Origin: Fimbriimonadaceae bacterium
GTDB lineage: Bacteria > Armatimonadota > UBA10988
Length of the DNA: 64,000 nucleotides
Assembly: GCA_020850355.1 (NCBI GenBank)
Contig: JADZEX010000059.1
Span: 1-64,000, forward strand
Reading direction: 5' to 3'
The stretch's first letter is position 1, and each line of letters starts with the position of its first letter. Position numbers and translations under genes: made by a program. A model generated the notes under the pieces. That model was not told the DNA's origin and did no database searches. It worked only from the letters and a program-made list of their open reading frames with translations. Below are positions 6,086 to 15,806 of this stretch, piece by piece.

Positions 6086-7426
6086 ATGCCTGAGTACGCC
6101 GGTGAATACCCCGCTCTGTATCCCAGCCTGAGCGGCTTGGACGAGGTGCTGCCGGAACGGCCGCGCGCCTTCCACATCATGACCAAGCCGATCGGCGCGC
6201 TCTGCAACTTGGACTGCACCTACTGCTTCTACCTGCGCAAAGAGGACCGCTACCCCGAGCACCGTGGCAGCGCCTGGCGGATGTCGGACGAGCTGCTGGA
6301 AGAGTACGTCCGGCAGTACATCGCCGCGCAGCAGGTCCCCGAGGTCCACTTCGCCTGGCAGGGCGGCGAACCGACGCTGCTTGGCGTCGGCTTCTTCCGG
6401 CGGGTGGTCGAGCTGCAGCGGCAGTACCGCCAGCCCGGCATGGTGATCCACAACGCCTTCCAGACCAACGGCACGCTCCTCGACGACGAGTGGTGCGAGT
6501 TCCTGCACCAGCACCACTTCCTGATCGGTCTCAGCGTCGACGGCCCGCCGGCCATCCATGACCACTACCGCGTCAACAAGGGCCAGCGCGGCAGTTTCGA
6601 GGCGGTCCGCCGCGGGCTCGAGCTGCTGCGGCAGCATCAGGTCGAGCACAACCTGCTGTGCGTCGTCAACGACTACAACAGCCGTTTCCCGCTGGAGGTC
6701 TACCGCTTCTTTCGCGACGAACTGGACGAGCGCTTCTACCAGTTCATCCCGGCCATCGAGTTCCTACCCGCCGGCGGCGTGACCCCCTGGTCGGTGCGGC
6801 CGGAGGCCTACGGCGAGTTCTTGTGCGCCATCTTCGACGAGTGGGTCCGCCGCGACGTGGGGCAGCGCTATGTGCAGATCTTCGACGTCGCCCTGCGCGG
6901 CTGGTGCGGCCTGGATCCGGGGCTCTGCGTCTTCAGCAAGCACTGCGGCAACGCCCTGGCGCTGGAGCACAACGGCGACCTGTACAGTTGCGACCACTTC
7001 GTGACCGACCACAACCGCCTCGGCAACATCGTCGACGTGCCGCTGGCCGACCTGGTCGCCGGCCCGCTGCAACGCAAGTTCGGCCGCGACAAATGCGATG
7101 CCCTGCCCGACTACTGCCGCCGCTGCGAGGTCCGCTTCGTCTGCAACGGCGGCTGCCCGAAGGACCGCTTCATCAAGACCCCCGACGGCGAGGCGGGCCT
7201 GAACTACCTCTGCGCCGGCTACCGCCGCTTCTTCAACCACATCGACCCCGCGATGAAGTTCATGGCCGCCGAACTGCGTAACCAACGCCCGCCGGCCAAC
7301 GTGATGGCCTGGCTCCGCGCCCGCGAGCTGCCCCAGGCGGCGGTCACCACGGTCGGCCGCAACGACGCCTGCCCCTGCGGATCCGGCCGCAAGTACAAGC
7401 AGTGCTGCGGCGCGCGGGGGCGGTGA
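6086..7426 (+). CDS. Anaerobic sulfatase-maturating-type radical SAM/SPASM enzyme with C-terminal SEC-C motif
   Basis: A 446-residue radical SAM enzyme. C40, C44 and C47 (CNLDCTYC) bind the SAM [4Fe-4S] cluster. The C-terminal third has a SPASM-type cysteine set (CGLDPGLC, CGNALALEHNGDLYSC, then CDALPDYCRRCEVRFVC) for two auxiliary clusters. Architecture and length match anSME, which oxidises an active-site Ser or Cys of sulfatases to formylglycine. The last 25 residues (NDACPCGSGRKYKQCCG) form a SEC-C zinc motif, frequent as a tail in this subfamily. The start at 6086 has GGGAG at 6076-6080. No sulfatase lies in the window, so its client must be encoded elsewhere, or the specificity differs from classical anSME. 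Confidence 0.9.
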   Translation: MPEYAGEYPALYPSLSGLDEVLPERPRAFHIMTKPIGALCNLDCTYCFYLRKEDRYPEHRGSAWRMSDELLEEYVRQYIAAQQVPEVHFAWQGGEPTLLGVGFFRRVVELQRQYRQPGMVIHNAFQTNGTLLDDEWCEFLHQHHFLIGLSVDGPPAIHDHYRVNKGQRGSFEAVRRGLELLRQHQVEHNLLCVVNDYNSRFPLEVYRFFRDELDERFYQFIPAIEFLPAGGVTPWSVRPEAYGEFLCAIFDEWVRRDVGQRYVQIFDVALRGWCGLDPGLCVFSKHCGNALALEHNGDLYSCDHFVTDHNRLGNIVDVPLADLVAGPLQRKFGRDKCDALPDYCRRCEVRFVCNGGCPKDRFIKTPDGEAGLNYLCAGYRRFFNHIDPAMKFMAAELRNQRPPANVMAWLRARELPQAAVTTVGRNDACPCGSGRKYKQCCGARGR

Positions 7427-7539
7427 CCGGGGCGGTGTCAGCGCGTCGCTGCGCCAACCACCCTCCGCGGACTCGTAGCGCGGCACCATGGCTTCGTCTG
7501 AGTGCCGCCACCCCCCGCCAAACGAAGTCTGCTGTTGTC

Positions 7540-7569
7540 TTGCATCTTGGCCTTGATCTGGTGCATACT
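7540..7569 (+). promoter_or_regulatory. Weak candidate promoter upstream of the RADAR operon
   Basis: The 186-base gap between the radical SAM gene and rdrA is visibly richer in A/T than its surroundings. TTGCAT (7540-7545) and CATACT (7564-7569) are spaced by 18 bases, matching the consensus at 3/6 and 4/6 positions. TTGCATC occurs twice, from 7540 and from 7579, and could be an operator half-site. Low confidence; no better candidate was seen in the gap. Confidence 0.3.
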
Positions 7570-7612
7570 TCGTTGGTTTGCATCGCAGATACGCGAGCCA
7601 GGGTGGTAACCA

Positions 7613-10417
7613 ATGCGCAATGTAGAGCCAGGGCCCCAGATCATCGATGTCGGCGTGCATCTCCTGAACGATGCCGAGCTGCTGGAGGACCAGCAACAAG
7701 CTGCCGAGCGGATCCTGGCGGTGATTGACGCGTTTCTGGAACCCGATGCGGGCCGGTCGGCCGTGAGCGGGCCCGATCCGGGCGTACCGTGGCTGTTGGC
7801 AAGCCGTCCGTCGCGCTTCGTCTGGCTGATGGGGGCCCGCGGCCAGGGCAAGACCTCGACTCTTCTGCATTGCTGCGCCAAGCTGCGGGAGCGGCAGTGC
7901 ATCGTCACGCAACCCCTCGAGCCAGAGTGGCTCCTCCGCGACGAGGATCCGTTCCTGGCGATCGCCGCGTCGCTGCTCGAGTGCCTCGAATCAGGCGAGT
8001 ACGAACGAAGCCGCCGCGACTGGATCAACGACTACTCCGCCACTACCGAGCGGCTCCGGGAGGAGTTGGTCTCCATCTGCTGCGACGTCGCCGCTCGTAG
8101 CCGGATCGGCGCCGAGCTGCAGCGGCAGGACTTCGAGGGGATCCTTGGCTACACACGGAAGGTCCTCTCAAACACCCAACGGCACTCGTCGCTGGTTCGT
8201 CGGCTGCGGCGCTGGTTCGCGGATCTGCTGCAGCACACCGACCGCATACTGGTGATTTTGCCGATCGACGACGTCGACGTGGCGCGTAGCCAGACCATGG
8301 CTGTGCTGAACGCGGCCCGCTGGTACCTCTGCCATCCGAATGTGGCCGTGATCTTCACCGCCGACTATGAGACGGTGCATCGCGCGGTTCTCAACGAACT
8401 GCTCGCCGAGCTGCCGACGGTCTACACCGGCGGTGGTGGAACAGTGGCGGCCGATCCAGCCTCTGAAGAGGCACGGACCGCGCCTCGGAGCGCCTCACGA
8501 GACGAGTTGCTGGCCGTGGAGCACCGCAAGGACGACGAGTATGCCCGTTTGCTCCTCCAGAAGCTGGCCCCATCGGGGTACCGGGCTCAGCTCCGCGCGT
8601 TGCCACCACAGCAGCGGCTGACCGCGCCCTTTTTCGCCCAGAGCGGTAAGGTCAGCCTCGCTGAGCTCCTGGAAGGGGTGCCGCTCGTGGCCGCCATCGG
8701 TTCTGGACCGTGGTACGCTCGCGGCGGCGTCAGTGAGACGGACATCACCGCGGTGCTGCGTTCATTCACCGAACACGGGAACAACAGCCTCAGCACCTCG
8801 CTCCGCCAACTCATCGCACTCTATCCGACCGTGCTGCCCACCAATCTGCGTCAACTGATCAACTGCATCAACGAGATCGCATTCCGCACCGAGGAGTACC
8901 GCCGGCGGTTGGCTCGCATCTTGGCTCCGCAGCAGCAGGTGGGACCCGATCAGGGGCGCTCCGCGGCGGACGCGCCGCCTTCTCTCCCACAGCAACCGCA
9001 GACAGCCTTGCCGGTCTGGCTCGAAGCTCAGGATCCGCGAGTCAGGGCGCAGCTCCACTTGTGGCAGGCTGCTGAATCCCGCTACGTCGTCGATGTCATC
9101 GCCGCGCTGGGTCGCAACGCGGACATTGAGGAGGACTCCGACCGCATGGTGGACGACTCGACCAACACACGGTTGCTCGACGCCACCACCGCCGATCAGT
9201 TCTCCCAGGTGCTTCGGCGAATCCGGGTTCAAGGCACGACCACGACGGGACCCAGCTACGTCTCCACCAAACGGACCGGAGAGCGCCAGCGGCTCTCCGA
9301 GGCAAGCTGCGCGTTGGTGAGCATCTTCAAGGAGTACACGATTCTGCGGGCGGGTTCGCCCTGGGCCGTCATCGGCGACCAGGAGCTCATGTTACAGCAT
9401 CGCTTCCAGCAGGACATTCCGCGCGTGGCGCTGTTCGATTGGCTCGCGCCGGCGGGTCAGCTCAGGGGGTGCTCTGAACTCGCCACTGTGATGGTCGACT
9501 CGTTGCGCAGCACCTTGGACTGGGCTCCACGGACGCCCGGGACAGTGAGTCTCTTCTACGACCGGCTGGATCTTGGTGCACCAGCCTGCCTGACCACCCT
9601 CCGGCAGGCCGCGCGCTACGCCCATGTGCTGCACGCAGACACCGATACGCGGTTGGATCGGATCGCTGAGGCGATGCGCGAAGCGGCCGGCACCCGAAGC
9701 GGCCGCCCAGCAGAACCTCAGCCCGAACTGACCTATCGCACGCTGGGCATGATCGCGAGTCGTGGCAACCTGGAGCTGACGGGTCTCTATCACGCCCTCG
9801 CGGGCGGTGACCGCTTGCCGTTCGCGGTGGGTGGGTCGTTCTCGGCCACCTGGCCGTGGCTGGTGGCCGACCAGGAGGGCACCGGCGACCTGCTTGTCGC
9901 GCTGCTGCGGGCCGAGAACCTCGAGATCGACCTCGTTGGGCGCTTGCTGCTGCTCCTGCGACTCGCCCGTTTGCCCCTGGCGCCTGCGCTCACGGTCTGG
10001 AGCCGACGGGACTCGTCGCAGGCCGGTCCGCCGCAGATCGTCGCAGCGATCAAAGCAGTCGTCCAGGACGCCGACGCGGCTGGCCTCACCACCGGACTGG
10101 ATCTCGCGCAGGCCCGCGAGCTGCTCAAGCTCCGCAAGCCGCGTTCGCAGTCCACCAACCTGAGCCTGCCGCTACAGCATGTGGCGCGCGCTGTGGACTA
10201 CATCGACCTGCACCGCCAGGCCGAGGATCTCCCGCTGTTCATCCAACTCATCGCGGCGCTGGAAGCCGACAGTACATCCAAGGCCGGCGCCACGCCTGAT
10301 AGCGCGCCGCCAAGCTGGGTCGAGTTGGCACAATACGCGCCGGGCGGTGGCACCGACACGGAGGTTGAGCCGTGGCGGAGACGCGACGATCTTGCTATTG
10401 AGGGGCCACCGGAGTGA
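7613..10417 (+). CDS. rdrA: RADAR anti-phage system NTPase RdrA
   Basis: A 934-residue P-loop NTPase. Walker A is GARGQGKT at residues 74-81, and Walker B is the hydrophobic strand ILVILPIDDVD at 212-222, followed by a sensor-like strand (NVAVIFTADYE). There is no membrane segment or signal. The remainder is a long alpha-helical region without a recognisable enzyme domain. Size, nucleotide site and, decisively, the four-base overlap with an adenosine-deaminase-fold partner match RdrA of RADAR. In that system RdrA forms ring-shaped oligomers that work with RdrB to deaminate adenosine nucleotides or RNA and block phage growth. ATG 7613 follows GGGTGG. The call rests on operon pairing plus motifs; a generic KAP/STAND-like NTPase is the alternative. 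Confidence 0.82.
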   Translation: MRNVEPGPQIIDVGVHLLNDAELLEDQQQAAERILAVIDAFLEPDAGRSAVSGPDPGVPWLLASRPSRFVWLMGARGQGKTSTLLHCCAKLRERQCIVTQPLEPEWLLRDEDPFLAIAASLLECLESGEYERSRRDWINDYSATTERLREELVSICCDVAARSRIGAELQRQDFEGILGYTRKVLSNTQRHSSLVRRLRRWFADLLQHTDRILVILPIDDVDVARSQTMAVLNAARWYLCHPNVAVIFTADYETVHRAVLNELLAELPTVYTGGGGTVAADPASEEARTAPRSASRDELLAVEHRKDDEYARLLLQKLAPSGYRAQLRALPPQQRLTAPFFAQSGKVSLAELLEGVPLVAAIGSGPWYARGGVSETDITAVLRSFTEHGNNSLSTSLRQLIALYPTVLPTNLRQLINCINEIAFRTEEYRRRLARILAPQQQVGPDQGRSAADAPPSLPQQPQTALPVWLEAQDPRVRAQLHLWQAAESRYVVDVIAALGRNADIEEDSDRMVDDSTNTRLLDATTADQFSQVLRRIRVQGTTTTGPSYVSTKRTGERQRLSEASCALVSIFKEYTILRAGSPWAVIGDQELMLQHRFQQDIPRVALFDWLAPAGQLRGCSELATVMVDSLRSTLDWAPRTPGTVSLFYDRLDLGAPACLTTLRQAARYAHVLHADTDTRLDRIAEAMREAAGTRSGRPAEPQPELTYRTLGMIASRGNLELTGLYHALAGGDRLPFAVGGSFSATWPWLVADQEGTGDLLVALLRAENLEIDLVGRLLLLLRLARLPLAPALTVWSRRDSSQAGPPQIVAAIKAVVQDADAAGLTTGLDLAQARELLKLRKPRSQSTNLSLPLQHVARAVDYIDLHRQAEDLPLFIQLIAALEADSTSKAGATPDSAPPSWVELAQYAPGGGTDTEVEPWRRRDDLAIEGPPE

Positions 10418-12762
10418 GCGCCCCGCTGCCGTCTCTGGGTCAGGCCACCAGTTCCGGCGATCACCTGGCCCCGCAGGCTGAGATCGTCTATCACCTGCTG
10501 ACGGACCCGCAGTTGGCGCGATGCGGACGCTCGGCCGGGAGTGGCCTGTCGGCGGCGGACCGGGCGCGACTGATCGATCTGCTGCAAGACCCTCCGAGTT
10601 CGACCGAGAAGCTGCGGGAGATTGAAGCGCTCGGGCAGTGTGGCAAGCCGGCACCGGGCACCGGCGGGCCGTTCTTGGTGCGCTGCCTGCTTGCCATCAC
10701 GGCACCACACGCCTTGATGGCGCAGCAGCGGCTGGCCGGTGCCGCGCAGCCGGCCGGCCAGCCCCCCGGGTTGGCGCCCACGGTACCGGTGGCGCAGTAT
10801 CGGCCATGGCGGGACATCGTCAACTGGGTGGACGAGGAACTGCTGGCGGCCCTGGCGGTGGCAGCCTGGGCCTGCCAGTCCGCGCCGAGCCAGCGAGCTG
10901 ACCTGATCTGGCAGCAGTGCCTGTGGCCGACCTTTCTGCGGCCGGCCGACCGGGACTATCAGGACCTGCTCGATGGTGGCGTGGAAGATGCTCATGTCCA
11001 CTTCGGGGAGCTGACGCCGGCCGTGGTGACGTGGCGCGAGCTGGTCGACGAGCAGTGGGTGCCGACTAAGGCGTGTAGTGACGCGCTGGGCCTGGCCGAA
11101 CTGAAGATTCAGGCCCGCGCGGCCCGACAGGAGCTGTGGTCGCAGTCCGGCCTGTGGCGGGCGCGGCGCGTCTGGCAGGAACTGGCACGGTACCAATGGC
11201 CGCTCGAGGTGCCGCGCCGCCAGCGGCCGCCAGGCGCGTTGCTACGCCACTACCTGCGGCCGGAGCGGTATCTGCTGAGCTACTGCCTCGCAGCACTTCT
11301 CGGCCAACACCACACTCCTGCCGGCGGCGGTGCCGGCCCGACGCTCGGGTCCCAAGCGGCGGACGCCTTCTGGCGCTATGTCCGCCAACGGTGCCTGTTC
11401 TGGCGGCGGCTCGGGCCGTCGCAGCCGGGGTTCGAGGCCTTCGTCAAAGAGGAACAACTCGATGGGGAGTACCTGCGGAAGGAGCTGCATGGACGCTTGA
11501 TCGTGGACTTCCTCGCCGACAGTCGCGTCGAGCGATTGGATGTGCGCTGCGTCGTCAAGCCTGGCACAGCCGGGATCAAGCCGGCTCATCAGCAGCGCAT
11601 CCGGCAGTACGCCGGGTACCACGACGAGTATGCCCAGCCGGCGGCCGTGCCACTCGCCTTCCTGGCGGTTGGTTCGCACCTCAAGGGCAAAGCACATGCC
11701 GCGAACGGCCGAGCCTTCGGCGTTCGGGAGGCGCCTGGGTGGCGGGGGCTCCGCCGGCGAGTGCTGGACTGGACTCGCCAGACCATCCGGAAGGGCCGGG
11801 TGGCTGGGCTGGACATGATCCAGTCGGAGTACGGCTTTGATCCCGGCATCGTGGCACCGGCGTACCGCCTGACCGCCGGGCAGCGGCTGTGCTGGCCTGG
11901 CGGCGAGCGACAGGAGACGGTCTTCGCCGCGACCACTGGCGACCGTTTGACCCGGTACTACCACACCGGCGAGGATGTCGACCACCCCATCACTGCCGCC
12001 CGGAACGCCGACCAGGCGATCGACTGGCTCGGGCTTGGTCCACGCGATCGCCTGGGGCACCTGACCGCCCTCGCCCAGCAGCCGGCGTGCTACACGGTGC
12101 GTGAAACCGTGGGCGAGCGCCTGGACAATCTCCTCTGGCTTGCCCAGCCCGCCGACCCCACGCCAGACGTTGCCCAATGGCGGCGTGAGCTCGGCGACTT
12201 GTGCGACGACACCTACCGCGAACAGACCAGGCGGCCGCGGATCGCGGATCTGACCGCGGCGTCCCGCTGGCTGCCGCTGCTGGAGCCAGACGAGGCAGCG
12301 CCGTCCGATGAACTGGCGTGGCTGGTCTACCTGTCAATCTGTAGCTTTGACGACGCACCGTTCCAACGCAACGCCCAGCCCTGGCTCCTGGAGGTCGCCG
12401 CGCAGGCCAAGCGCTGTCGACTCCGGCGCCAGGAGTGGATCACTGGGGACTACAGCGCTGCGGCCATGCAGTCCGCGCTGGACCGGCTCCAGCACAAGGT
12501 GCTGCAGTCCGGCGTGCTGATCGAGACCTGCCCGACCTCGAACCTGGTGATCGGCAGCCGCCACCAGGCCGCCGTCCCAGGAGCGCGCCTCGCCGCTTCC
12601 CAGCTGCAGGGTTGCCTGGTGATCGGAACCGACGACCCCTCCATGCTACTCACCGATCTGCCCGCGGAGTTGGCCCTGGCCGCCAGCCAGTTGCTGCACG
12701 ACCAGCCAGAGACGCCGCGCGGCGAAATCTTCGCGAGGCTGCAACGTCTCGCCGGCCAGTAG
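10414..12762 (+). CDS. rdrB: RADAR anti-phage system adenosine deaminase RdrB
   Basis: A 782-residue protein with every adenosine-deaminase active-site motif in order. HxH is at 194/196 (DAHVHFG), HTGED supplies H517 and the catalytic-type E520, and H549 in RLGH matches RIGHG. CPTSN lies at 706-710, and the metal and catalytic Asp in GTDDP at 740-741. Ordinary adenosine deaminases are about 350 residues; the large N-terminal region and the long insert between HxH and HTGE are as expected for RdrB, which assembles into large shells and converts adenosine to inosine. The start is GTG 10414 within GTGA, overlapping the rdrA stop, so the pair is translationally coupled. No third accessory gene (SLATT or Csx27-like) follows on this strand. 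Confidence 0.88.
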   Translation: MSAPLPSLGQATSSGDHLAPQAEIVYHLLTDPQLARCGRSAGSGLSAADRARLIDLLQDPPSSTEKLREIEALGQCGKPAPGTGGPFLVRCLLAITAPHALMAQQRLAGAAQPAGQPPGLAPTVPVAQYRPWRDIVNWVDEELLAALAVAAWACQSAPSQRADLIWQQCLWPTFLRPADRDYQDLLDGGVEDAHVHFGELTPAVVTWRELVDEQWVPTKACSDALGLAELKIQARAARQELWSQSGLWRARRVWQELARYQWPLEVPRRQRPPGALLRHYLRPERYLLSYCLAALLGQHHTPAGGGAGPTLGSQAADAFWRYVRQRCLFWRRLGPSQPGFEAFVKEEQLDGEYLRKELHGRLIVDFLADSRVERLDVRCVVKPGTAGIKPAHQQRIRQYAGYHDEYAQPAAVPLAFLAVGSHLKGKAHAANGRAFGVREAPGWRGLRRRVLDWTRQTIRKGRVAGLDMIQSEYGFDPGIVAPAYRLTAGQRLCWPGGERQETVFAATTGDRLTRYYHTGEDVDHPITAARNADQAIDWLGLGPRDRLGHLTALAQQPACYTVRETVGERLDNLLWLAQPADPTPDVAQWRRELGDLCDDTYREQTRRPRIADLTAASRWLPLLEPDEAAPSDELAWLVYLSICSFDDAPFQRNAQPWLLEVAAQAKRCRLRRQEWITGDYSAAAMQSALDRLQHKVLQSGVLIETCPTSNLVIGSRHQAAVPGARLAASQLQGCLVIGTDDPSMLLTDLPAELALAASQLLHDQPETPRGEIFARLQRLAGQ

Positions 12763-12930: not shown

Positions 12931-13782
12931 TCACAGGGCGGTGGTGGCGCGGCAGTCGGGGTAGCGGGCACAGCCCCAGAAGCGCTCCCCCGCCCGCGAC
13001 CCCTGACGCACGGTGCGCAGCTTCATCAGCGATCCGCAGCGGGGGCAGGTGGGGGGATCGGGCCGATCGGTCCGATCGGACTGATCGGTCGGGTTGGTCT
13101 GATCTTCCCTCGCCCGCGCCTGGCGGGCGGCGAAGCGGGCTGCGGCGAGGCGTTCGCTGTAGCCGCCCTCCTCGACGAAGTCGCGCTCGACGGCGCGGAT
13201 CTGCTGGTCGAGCAGGTAGTTGGCCTGGTGGATCAGGCAAATCAGGCAGTTGGCCCGCTGCGCCGGATCGGCGCTGTGCAACCAGCGGGCGTAGGGGGTG
13301 GTGGGATCCGACGGATCTGACCGATCGGTCGGATCAGGCGGATCCGGGCTGCGCTGCCGGCCGATCTCCCGGACCGCCAGCGCCTCGGGGTGATCCTTGG
13401 TCCAGGCCGGCAACCGCCGCTGGCGTAGGAAGTCCTCGTAGTCCAGCAGCAGCTCGTCCAAGCTGGCCCGCGCGACGCCCAGCAGGCGCAGCTCGGTCTG
13501 GCTGCTGGTGCCGCTGGCGCGGCTTCCTTCGGCGATGTTCTGCCGCCCGCTGCGCGCCGCTTGAACCATCTGGTCGACCGTCCGTGAGTGCGCGTCGACG
13601 AACAGCTCGCAGAAGGCCACCGTGGCGTCGTAGACGATGGTGGTCACCCGAAACGACCGCAGGCTGCGGTAACCACCCGAGGGGCGGAGGTTCTTGGGGG
13701 ATCCGTCGGAACGGTCAAATCGGTCAGATCGGTCAAATCGGTCGGATCGGTCAGATCGGCCGGATTGGTCAGAGCCCATCAT
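12931..13782 (-). CDS. Four-helix-bundle (23S rRNA IVP-like) protein with SDR repeats and topoisomerase-type zinc ribbon
   Basis: A 283-residue protein. Residues 40-135 form a helical bundle of the IVP/Avd-like four-helix class (note QAARSGRQNIAEGSRASG), continuing in a suffix helix (CLICLIHQANYLLDQQIR). The C-terminus, CPRCGSLMKLRT then FWGCARYPDC, is a topoisomerase-I-type C4 zinc ribbon that probably binds nucleic acid. The three linkers are low-complexity Asp/Ser/Arg/Pro stretches encoded by GATCGGTC-like DNA repeats; the first is a run of (S/F)DR tripeptides at residues 4-26. Starts at 13782 or 13779 both fit GGGGGAG at 13787-13793. It is convergent with rdrB. The family resembles group-I-intron or IVS-associated and Avd proteins, but no reverse transcriptase is near. 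Function unknown. Confidence 0.82.
   Translation of the reverse strand: MMGSDQSGRSDRSDRFDRSDRFDRSDGSPKNLRPSGGYRSLRSFRVTTIVYDATVAFCELFVDAHSRTVDQMVQAARSGRQNIAEGSRASGTSSQTELRLLGVARASLDELLLDYEDFLRQRRLPAWTKDHPEALAVREIGRQRSPDPPDPTDRSDPSDPTTPYARWLHSADPAQRANCLICLIHQANYLLDQQIRAVERDFVEEGGYSERLAAARFAARQARAREDQTNPTDQSDRTDRPDPPTCPRCGSLMKLRTVRQGSRAGERFWGCARYPDCRATTAL
13057..13105. repeat. GATCGGTC-type repeat block, C-terminal linker
   Basis: About five imperfect 9-base copies around GATCGGTC/GATCGGACT, in frame inside the four-helix-bundle gene. They encode an Asp/Thr/Ser/Arg/Pro linker just before the zinc ribbon. Confidence 0.7.
13303..13350. repeat. GATCGGTC-type repeat block, central linker
   Basis: Four to five degenerate 9-base copies (GGATCCGAC, GGATCTGAC, CGATCGGTC, GGATCAGGC) in frame within the same gene. 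They encode a DPPDPTDRSDPSDP-like linker between the two helical segments. Confidence 0.7.
13703..13774. repeat. Tandem 9-base repeat encoding (S/F)DR tripeptides
   Basis: Eight contiguous 9-base units from 13703: a first degenerate unit, five units of CGGTC(A/G)(A/G)AT at 13712-13756, then two decaying units. The length is a multiple of three, so copy-number change alters protein length without shifting the frame. It lies directly after the start codon of the four-helix-bundle gene. Confidence 0.85.
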
Positions 13783-13839
13783 CCAACTCCCCCACGGTCG
13801 CTTCGCCAGCCAGCGGGCGCTCCCTGTTGCGCGTCGCCC

Positions 13840-15684
13840 TCAGGCCCGCCGCGCGCACAGCTTGCGGACGCCGCCGCCGGTCAGGTCGGCAGTCAAGTAG
13901 CGGCTCAGGCCAACCGTCTCGACCTGGCTGGCGTGGTCGTCGAGCGTCGCGCTGCGCCAGGCCGCGGGCAGCAGCAGGCGGAGGCTGTAGCGCTCGGCAA
14001 CGCCGGTCAGCGTCAAGTGGATTCTCTCCGCGGCGTACTCCCAGCGGTAGGCGGTGTAGGCTTCGGACGCCGGGTAGTGCAGCACCACGGTGGCAGCCGT
14101 GGTGGCGGTGGCGGCCCAGCGCGGGGCGACGGTCACTCGGCGTTGGGCGGGGGCCGTGGGCTGCAGGCCGGCCAGGCCACCGAACAGGGCGTCGAGCCAG
14201 TGGCCGAGCGCCCAGCCATCGTGGCCGGTGGTGTTGGCGGTGCGGTAGCCGGGCTCGCCGTTGGGCCAGTACCAGGTGTACAGCTCACCGTCGCGCTCCT
14301 GCAGGAACGCGGCGCAGTCCCGCAGCACCTGGTGACCGTACGGCTCCTCACCGCAAGCCAGCGCCGCCGCGGCCAGGGCGCCGCCGACCCACGGCAGCAA
14401 CCCCCCGTTGCAGTAGCCGCCGGTGTGCTGGTAGGGGTGGCGCGCCAGGAAGGGGTAGTCCGCGTGCGGGTAACCCGGTTGCAGGCTCCACCACGGCGGC
14501 TGCGCCAGGTCCTGCGACCGGCGGCGGTATTGTTCGACGACCCGGCGCCCCTGCTCGGCGGTGGCCAGCCCGCGGGTGACGGCCCAGGGGTTGCTCATCG
14601 CCAGTTGCGCGGCTTCGTCGAAGCTGCCGTGGTCGAGCGGGCTGAGGTGCCGGTGGTGCTGGAACTTCTGACCGTCCCACAGCGCGTCGACGGCGCGGGC
14701 GCGGAAGTTGCGGGCCTCGTCGCCCAGTTCGAGGGCGCGCTGCGTGCCGCCCAGGTGGCCGTGCATCTGCGCCAGCGCCAGCAGCGCGGCATAGTAGCCG
14801 GTCTGGTCACACAGCGCGGCGACCTGCGGCGTGGAGTCGTCGTAGACATCGCCGGTGAAGATGCTGAAGTCCCAGGTGTCGCAGGTGTGCGGCCGCACCA
14901 CCAGCCCCTGGCCGAGGTGCCAGCGCCGCGGGTTGCCACGCAGGTGCGCCAGGGCGCGCTCGGCCGCCGGCAGCCAGGCGCGCAGCCAGGTGTCGTCACC
15001 GGTGATCTGCCAGGTCTCGTAGACCGCCAGCACCGCGACATACTCGACATCGCTCTCGGTGATCATCCGCCAGGTGCTGCCATCGGCGCGGACGCCGTCG
15101 GGCAGCGACCCATCGGGCTGCTGGCGCCGCAGCAGGGCGCTGAAGCCCGAGGCGACGTCGCGCTCCCAGAGCCGGTAGCCCGGCAGGTTGTAGAACATGT
15201 CGCGCAGCCAGAAGGCCAGCGTCTGCACCGAGTCGGCGGTGGTGTAGCCGACGACCATGCCGCCGTCGAGGGCGTAGCGCCGGCGGTTCAGCAGCATCGC
15301 GGCGCGGGCCGTCGGGTAGAGCCGATCGAGGGCCGGGTCGCCGCAGCGCAGGCTGGTGGCGACCTGCAGATCGAAGTTCACCAGCCGACAATGTCGCGCC
15401 GCGCCGTCGAGCCAGAGCCGCACGAACTGCATTCCCGGCGCGCCGCCGGCGGTGAAGGTCACCTCGCAGGGCCCGTCGCCGCAGGTTCCCTCGGCCGCGC
15501 CATAGGCCTGGCCGAGGCCATCGTGCCACTGCACCCGCCAGCGGTGCGCCCCGGTGGCGGCGGGACCGACCCGCAGGCGGACGGTCTCGAGCGGCCGATA
15601 GGCGGGCTGCTCGACGCGCAGCTCGCCCCAGTCACGCTGGACGGTGCCCGCCGGCGGGGTGAACGAGCCAAAGACGACAGGCAT
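13840..15684 (-). CDS. Cytoplasmic (alpha/alpha)6-barrel glycoside hydrolase-like protein
   Basis: A 614-residue protein with an N-terminal beta-sandwich (to about residue 115) and a long helical-toroid catalytic region. The latter contains DGGMVVGYTTADSVQTLAFW, FSALLRRQQPDGSLPDG, TESDVEYVAVLAVYETW and HTGGYCNGGLLPWVGGA. The order resembles alpha-rhamnosidase, GH63 and GH116-like clan (alpha/alpha)6 enzymes. A small C-terminal beta domain follows. No signal peptide is visible. The frame opens at 15711, but ATG 15684 has a perfect AGGAGG five bases upstream and is preferred. It is divergent from the PTPS gene. The substrate is unknown; an oligosaccharide-cleaving role is inferred from fold-level resemblance only. 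Confidence 0.8.
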   Translation of the reverse strand: MPVVFGSFTPPAGTVQRDWGELRVEQPAYRPLETVRLRVGPAATGAHRWRVQWHDGLGQAYGAAEGTCGDGPCEVTFTAGGAPGMQFVRLWLDGAARHCRLVNFDLQVATSLRCGDPALDRLYPTARAAMLLNRRRYALDGGMVVGYTTADSVQTLAFWLRDMFYNLPGYRLWERDVASGFSALLRRQQPDGSLPDGVRADGSTWRMITESDVEYVAVLAVYETWQITGDDTWLRAWLPAAERALAHLRGNPRRWHLGQGLVVRPHTCDTWDFSIFTGDVYDDSTPQVAALCDQTGYYAALLALAQMHGHLGGTQRALELGDEARNFRARAVDALWDGQKFQHHRHLSPLDHGSFDEAAQLAMSNPWAVTRGLATAEQGRRVVEQYRRRSQDLAQPPWWSLQPGYPHADYPFLARHPYQHTGGYCNGGLLPWVGGALAAAALACGEEPYGHQVLRDCAAFLQERDGELYTWYWPNGEPGYRTANTTGHDGWALGHWLDALFGGLAGLQPTAPAQRRVTVAPRWAATATTAATVVLHYPASEAYTAYRWEYAAERIHLTLTGVAERYSLRLLLPAAWRSATLDDHASQVETVGLSRYLTADLTGGGVRKLCARRA

Positions 15685-15806
15685 CGGGGCCTCCTGGCAG
15701 GCGATTGGCAAGCTCGCCCCAGACCCCTGCGCGGTTTGGGCGCAGAATGGGAGGACGTGTCATCCTGAGGGCCGGCGCCCCGCGGCGGCCAACGGTCGAG
15801 AGAGCC

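Follow-up and report, generated by a model that had tools for sequence, protein, structure and literature searches.

Positions 1 to 64,000 of contig JADZEX010000059.1 from a Fimbriimonadaceae bacterium of the phylum Armatimonadota (the window, 64,000 nucleotides) carry an NTPase gene that runs into the gene of an adenosine deaminase. The question raised by this arrangement is whether the pair belongs to RADAR, the rdrA-rdrB anti-phage system whose AAA+ ring detects infection and whose deaminase shell, acted on by the ring, turns ATP and dATP into ITP and dITP (PMC9994260), or to something that merely resembles it. An earlier note had named RADAR on the grounds of gene size, order and overlap. 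The analysis sustains that identification through a deaminase that matches canonical RdrB beyond its core, carries RdrB-type insertions and keeps the catalytic residues. The pair is very probably a strongly diverged RADAR-type two-gene module. It represents no new kind of system: RADAR is known already, and the window pair adds a sparsely sampled phylum to the range of the family.

Both open reading frames and the overlap between them are confirmed from the sequence at the positions given in Table 1. The NTPase gene lies directly upstream of the deaminase gene on the same strand, which is the RADAR gene order, and the GTGA overlap probably couples their translation. The same 5.15 kb, mononucleotide-shuffled 200 times, has a longest stop-free stretch of 265 codons on average and 506 at most; both frames are far longer, so they are not chance frames in GC-rich DNA. 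GC content at codon positions 1, 2 and 3 (0.70/0.49/0.80 in rdrA and 0.75/0.51/0.83 in rdrB) has the pattern of coding sequence. A scan for promoters and terminators returned nothing above chance at a relevant place.

Table 1. Coordinates of the rdrA-rdrB-like pair in the window.
Feature	Position	Strand	Details and evidence
rdrA-like KAP/AAA+ NTPase, 934 aa	7613..10417	+	ATG start; ORF, profile matches, residue map
rdrB-like adenosine deaminase, 782 aa	10414..12762	+	GTG start; ORF, profiles, HHalign, AlphaFold2/Foldseek
GTGA overlap	10414..10417	+	rdrA stop TGA within rdrB start GTG

The active site of the deaminase is intact. The five motifs read from its sequence by the earlier note are all present and in order: HVH at 194-196, HTGE at 517-520, RLGH at 546-549, CPTSN at 706-710 and TDDP at 739-742. 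With the catalytic residues of the solved E. coli RdrA and RdrB taken as reference (PMC9994260), H194, H196, H517, E520 and H549 align with H152, H154, H498, E501 and H530 of E. coli RdrB, and every alignable catalytic residue of the solved E. coli RADAR is kept in the window pair. What separates this protein from metabolic enzymes is the material between the motifs. It is nearly twice the size of a metabolic deaminase, with 193 residues N-terminal to the HxH motif, a spacing of 323 residues from HxH to HxGE (346 in the E. coli type and about 217-225 in metabolic enzymes) and 157 residues from RxGH to SN (171-202 in canonical RdrB and 95-102 in metabolic enzymes). The excess over metabolic-type enzymes amounts to about 100 residues between HxH and HxGE and about 55 ahead of the PTSN motif. 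These segment lengths, together with an HHalign alignment over residues 120-762, place three RdrB-type insertions (1, 2 and 3) in the deaminase core. In E. coli RdrB such extra segments build the shell; those of the window RdrB are candidates for the 2-fold and 3-fold interfaces of a shell.

Profile comparisons point the same way. RdrB is the best family match for the deaminase in both PADLOC (31.4 bits) and NCBIfam (40.9 bits), phmmer matches it to 8fnv with an E value of 2.6e-4, and Pfam A_deaminase reaches 19.4 bits over its C-terminal part, under the cut-off. In HHalign comparisons with ten canonical RdrB proteins and ten metabolic-type deaminases, the window RdrB aligns with canonical RdrB over residues 120-762 at default settings (99.4%, E 2.6e-21) and with the metabolic-type enzymes over the core alone, residues 462-757 (E 1.3e-14). 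A relaxed setting extends the RdrB alignment to residues 15-780; residues 15-119 align only then. Canonical RdrB proteins, each left out of the profile in turn, score from 1.7e-41 to 4.1e-71, so the window RdrB lies farther out than all of these, but on the same side. A profile built from three Armatimonadota RdrB-like proteins matches 8fnv at 1.8e-28 over about 480 positions, while the best metabolic enzyme reaches 2.7e-8. At the level of profile alignment, these results show homology between the window deaminase and RdrB beyond the deaminase core. A tree agrees with this division: a branch with 100/100 support splits the RdrB-type proteins (the window protein, L018, L019, L028 and ten canonical RdrB) from nine metabolic-type deaminases. 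The window RdrB has the longest branch in the tree, and because of long branches it takes no firm position inside the RdrB side.

The comparison with solved structures that the earlier note had proposed gives the same ranking for RdrB. The AlphaFold2 model of the window RdrB is of modest quality (mean pLDDT 52, pTM 0.51), and the top eight Foldseek matches to it are all chains of solved E. coli RdrB, with E values from 7e-10 to 6e-8; the next family follows at 2e-2. VIA-align superposes the model on RdrB with Z 22.2 and 4.2 Å over 362 residues, compared with a Z of about 19 (19.2) for Cad1 and 18 or less for metabolic deaminases. Since the input alignment included both RdrB homologues and metabolic deaminases, the model supports the assignment and is no independent proof of it. 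Confidence is low in the N-terminal region of the model, and the deaminase has no CARF family match in Pfam, NCBIfam or PADLOC scans. The model of the window RdrA (pLDDT 39) was discarded as unusable.

The NTPase carries the Walker A and Walker B motifs ascribed to it earlier, as GARGQGKT at residues 74-81 and IDD with D219 and D220. K80/T81, D219/D220 and D251 align with the Walker A, Walker B and sensor-1 residues K82/T83, D221/D222 and D253 of E. coli RdrA, and the 139 residues between K80 and D219 equal the distance from K82 to D221. The column of the sensor-2 arginine (R377) is unplaceable in every homologue, canonical RdrA included. The long helical C-terminal part has no domain match, and the Pfam scan found no sensor domain in the protein, whether SAVED, CARF or another. 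RdrA is the best family in PADLOC (19.7 bits) and NCBIfam (29.2 bits), with Pfam KAP_NTPase at 20.5 bits. By HHalign, canonical RdrA is matched at 1.5e-10 and QatA/KAP NTPases of the phylum, taken as controls, at 4.7e-8, a small margin; each canonical RdrA, compared with the remaining ones, reaches between 2e-13 and 2e-33. A profile of three Armatimonadota RdrA-like proteins, free of canonical members, ranks the solved S. suis-type RdrA (8fnu) first (2.4e-7). It also matches 8fnt/8hr7, with E. coli RdrA at about 1e-4 and a RecA fusion chain scoring in between. Taken by itself, the NTPase evidence from these alignments is supportive of RdrA membership and not decisive, and the assignment draws its strength from the pairing of the gene with an RdrB-type deaminase. 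The earlier note had held that RADAR would be refuted if the best profile matches were metabolic deaminases or KAP NTPases of an unrelated kind; the profile search it suggested ranks RdrA and RdrB as best families in both collections, with RdrA ahead of QatA/KAP by that small margin and RdrB ahead of the metabolic deaminases.

Curated cut-offs turned out to be a poor guide to membership. Both window proteins fall far under the NCBIfam equivalog thresholds (RdrB 40.9 against 800 bits, RdrA 29.2 against 600), and so does E. coli-type RADAR (RdrB 114.6 bits, RdrA 127.8 bits). With 46 residues of solved E. coli RdrB as the probe, seven RADAR pairs were recovered from plasmids, and among them only the Aliivibrio and Salmonella pairs pass. 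The RdrB of Pantoea, a 97.8% match to these 46 residues with the same catalytic residue numbers as E. coli RdrB, scores 114.6, and the Cetobacterium plasmid RdrA has no RdrA match whatever. The cut-offs were therefore dropped as a membership test: these annotation thresholds, which E. coli-type RADAR fails too, describe one subtype and not all RADAR. Published RADAR systems share only 22-28% identity with one another in conserved regions (PMC9994260). The NCBIfam cut-offs for RdrA and RdrB (NF041743 and NF041744) thus miss RADAR pairs of the E. coli type and several others, which plasmid records list only as hypothetical proteins, and surveys that rely on such cut-offs will undercount RADAR.

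The pair was also expected to be a divergent example in its lineage, and it is: the window RdrB has the lowest score of all RdrB-type proteins tested, and RADAR-size RdrB matches occur in 2 of 291 genomes of the phylum, the window's own and G249. The host genome (6.67 Mb in 117 contigs, 95% complete; the window is contig 62) holds a second overlapping pair, L018, on the minus strand of contig 57 at 6864-12661, with an NTPase of 1116 aa and a deaminase of 816 aa. This pair is about equally far from the window pair and from canonical RADAR. G249, from another family of the phylum, has a full NTPase-deaminase pair in the same gene order (L019), and the closest relative of the window RdrB is a C-terminal RdrB piece at a contig end of G249 (L005/L027), with 45% identity over the aligned part and the motifs kept. 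A match in genome G139 (L003/L004) was rejected as spurious; it sits in an aldehyde-dehydrogenase/deoC region. Searches of plasmids and phages by tblastn gave no homologue of the window RdrB at 1e-5, and none was found in viral contigs.

The flanking genes scanned encode a radical-SAM sulfatase maturase, a GH123 protein, a four-helix-bundle/zinc-ribbon protein, an uncharacterised protein of 623 aa, QueD and MutL; none is a defence gene or a Qat partner. With flanks of this metabolic or housekeeping type, the locus is not an evident defence island. GC3 is 0.80 in rdrA and 0.83 in rdrB, against mostly 0.87-0.93 in the neighbours. The lower GC3 and the patchy distribution fit an accessory, horizontally moved module, which they do not prove. 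In the relative G214, synteny comparison on a short contig finds the flanking gene 13840-15711 present with other genes beside it. The gene for the four-helix-bundle/zinc-ribbon protein (12931-13782, minus strand) contains degenerate 9-base GATCGGTCN-type repeats at 13037-13784 of the window, encoding runs of Asp-Arg-Ser-type repeats in the protein.

The distant NTPase leaves room for a different defence module, a sister of RADAR in which an RdrB-type deaminase is joined to an NTPase of another KAP branch and still acts on adenine nucleotides, with a trigger, assembly or substrate unlike those of RADAR. Such a module would account for the marginal preference of the NTPase for RdrA over other KAP/QatA NTPases in HHalign and for the longest branch in the tree, and it has a precedent in the Myxococcota locus L028, where an RdrB-like deaminase beside a SAVED-bearing NTPase indicates that the deaminase can pair with different sensors. 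It is nevertheless improbable, as RdrA is the best family in PADLOC and NCBIfam, the Walker and sensor-1 residues and the K80-D219 spacing equal those of E. coli RdrA, and the window NTPase has no match in the Pfam scan to SAVED, CARF or any further sensor domain.

The chance that the deaminase is a metabolic adenosine or AMP deaminase beside an unrelated NTPase, with no role in defence, is very slight. The weak A_deaminase match and the metabolic or housekeeping character of the scanned flanks would suit such an enzyme, but its near-double size, its RdrB-type insertions and an RdrB profile that outscores the metabolic one would not. The genome, moreover, has a separate deaminase-like open frame of the usual size (356 aa, G000:C71), and the overlap of NTPase and deaminase genes is repeated in its second pair. 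Slighter still is the chance of a decayed or inactive RADAR relict. Extreme divergence and the lowest scores among relatives might be read as decay, yet both frames are open over their full length with all catalytic residues kept, and the same-subtype relative in another family of the phylum (L005/L027) keeps its motifs.

A diverged RADAR module thus remains the preferred reading, and homology with E. coli RADAR suggests how it might work. The NTPase would assemble into an AAA+ ring, a heptamer in RADAR, with its C-terminal region as the sensor of a phage signal, and the ring would dock on a shell of RdrB deaminase, a dodecamer in RADAR. The shell would convert ATP and dATP to ITP and dITP, which would poison the nucleotide pool and abort phage growth. 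By this analogy, the assembly of ring and shell, the trigger, the substrate and the defence role of the window pair are all predicted from its studied relatives. RADAR is in this way placed in Armatimonadota, twice in one genome, and members as divergent as these help to tell the essential structure of shell and ring from a variable sensor surface.

RADAR-like loci elsewhere show a range of company. At L028 (MAG JAKLKD010000191.1, 2-10281), matches to cmr3-cmr4-cmr5-cmr6 of type III-B CRISPR are followed on the same strand by the KAP NTPase with its C-terminal SAVED domain, then by the RdrB-like deaminase, whose motifs are complete, and by a CBASS cyclase and a SAVED-CHAT protein. Such a gene order suggests a RADAR-like deaminase under cyclic-oligonucleotide control, and possibly a link between RADAR, Cad1 and CBASS. 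A bolder and rather unlikely proposal is that the window pair and its relatives form a separate RADAR subtype, set apart by the phage signal that its NTPase senses or by the adenine nucleotide that its deaminase favours. The subtype would belong to a broader family in which a single RdrB-type deaminase joins different NTPases as sensors, among them the SAVED-bearing kind seen at a CRISPR-Cmr/CBASS locus. In a Bacteroidales MAG (L031, 2236-11087), a RADAR pair is followed by a TPR gene and two FRG-domain genes, possibly accessory proteins. On the Aureibacter plasmid pAT1 (L022, 3364-9690), a SLATT-domain gene comes after a RADAR pair that the annotation gives only as hypothetical proteins, and overlaps it. 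Three IMG/VR contigs classed as viral (L049, L050 and L051) carry E. coli-type RADAR pairs, in two of them with neighbours that look by eye like lysis genes; RADAR may therefore travel as prophage cargo.

A comparison with known systems sets the window pair closest to RADAR. QatA and other KAP NTPases have the P-loop KAP/AAA+ core in common with the window NTPase, and QatA scores under RdrA. Cad1 is a CARF-fused adenosine deaminase of type III CRISPR whose core converts ATP to ITP (PMC11645235, PMC12669630). The window RdrB shares this deaminase core (VIA-align Z about 19) and is nearer RdrB (Z 22.2); unlike Cad1, it has no CARF match and is paired with a separate NTPase. From the studied RADAR systems, the E. 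coli P0304799.3, Citrobacter rodentium and Streptococcus suis types (PMC9994260), the window pair differs in its identity of about 15-20% over aligned columns, a shorter insertion 3, an RdrA C-terminal part that does not align with confidence, and its Armatimonadota host. With these same systems it shares the NTPase-first order, the gene sizes, the catalytic residues, the three deaminase insertions and a near full-length match to the RdrB profile.
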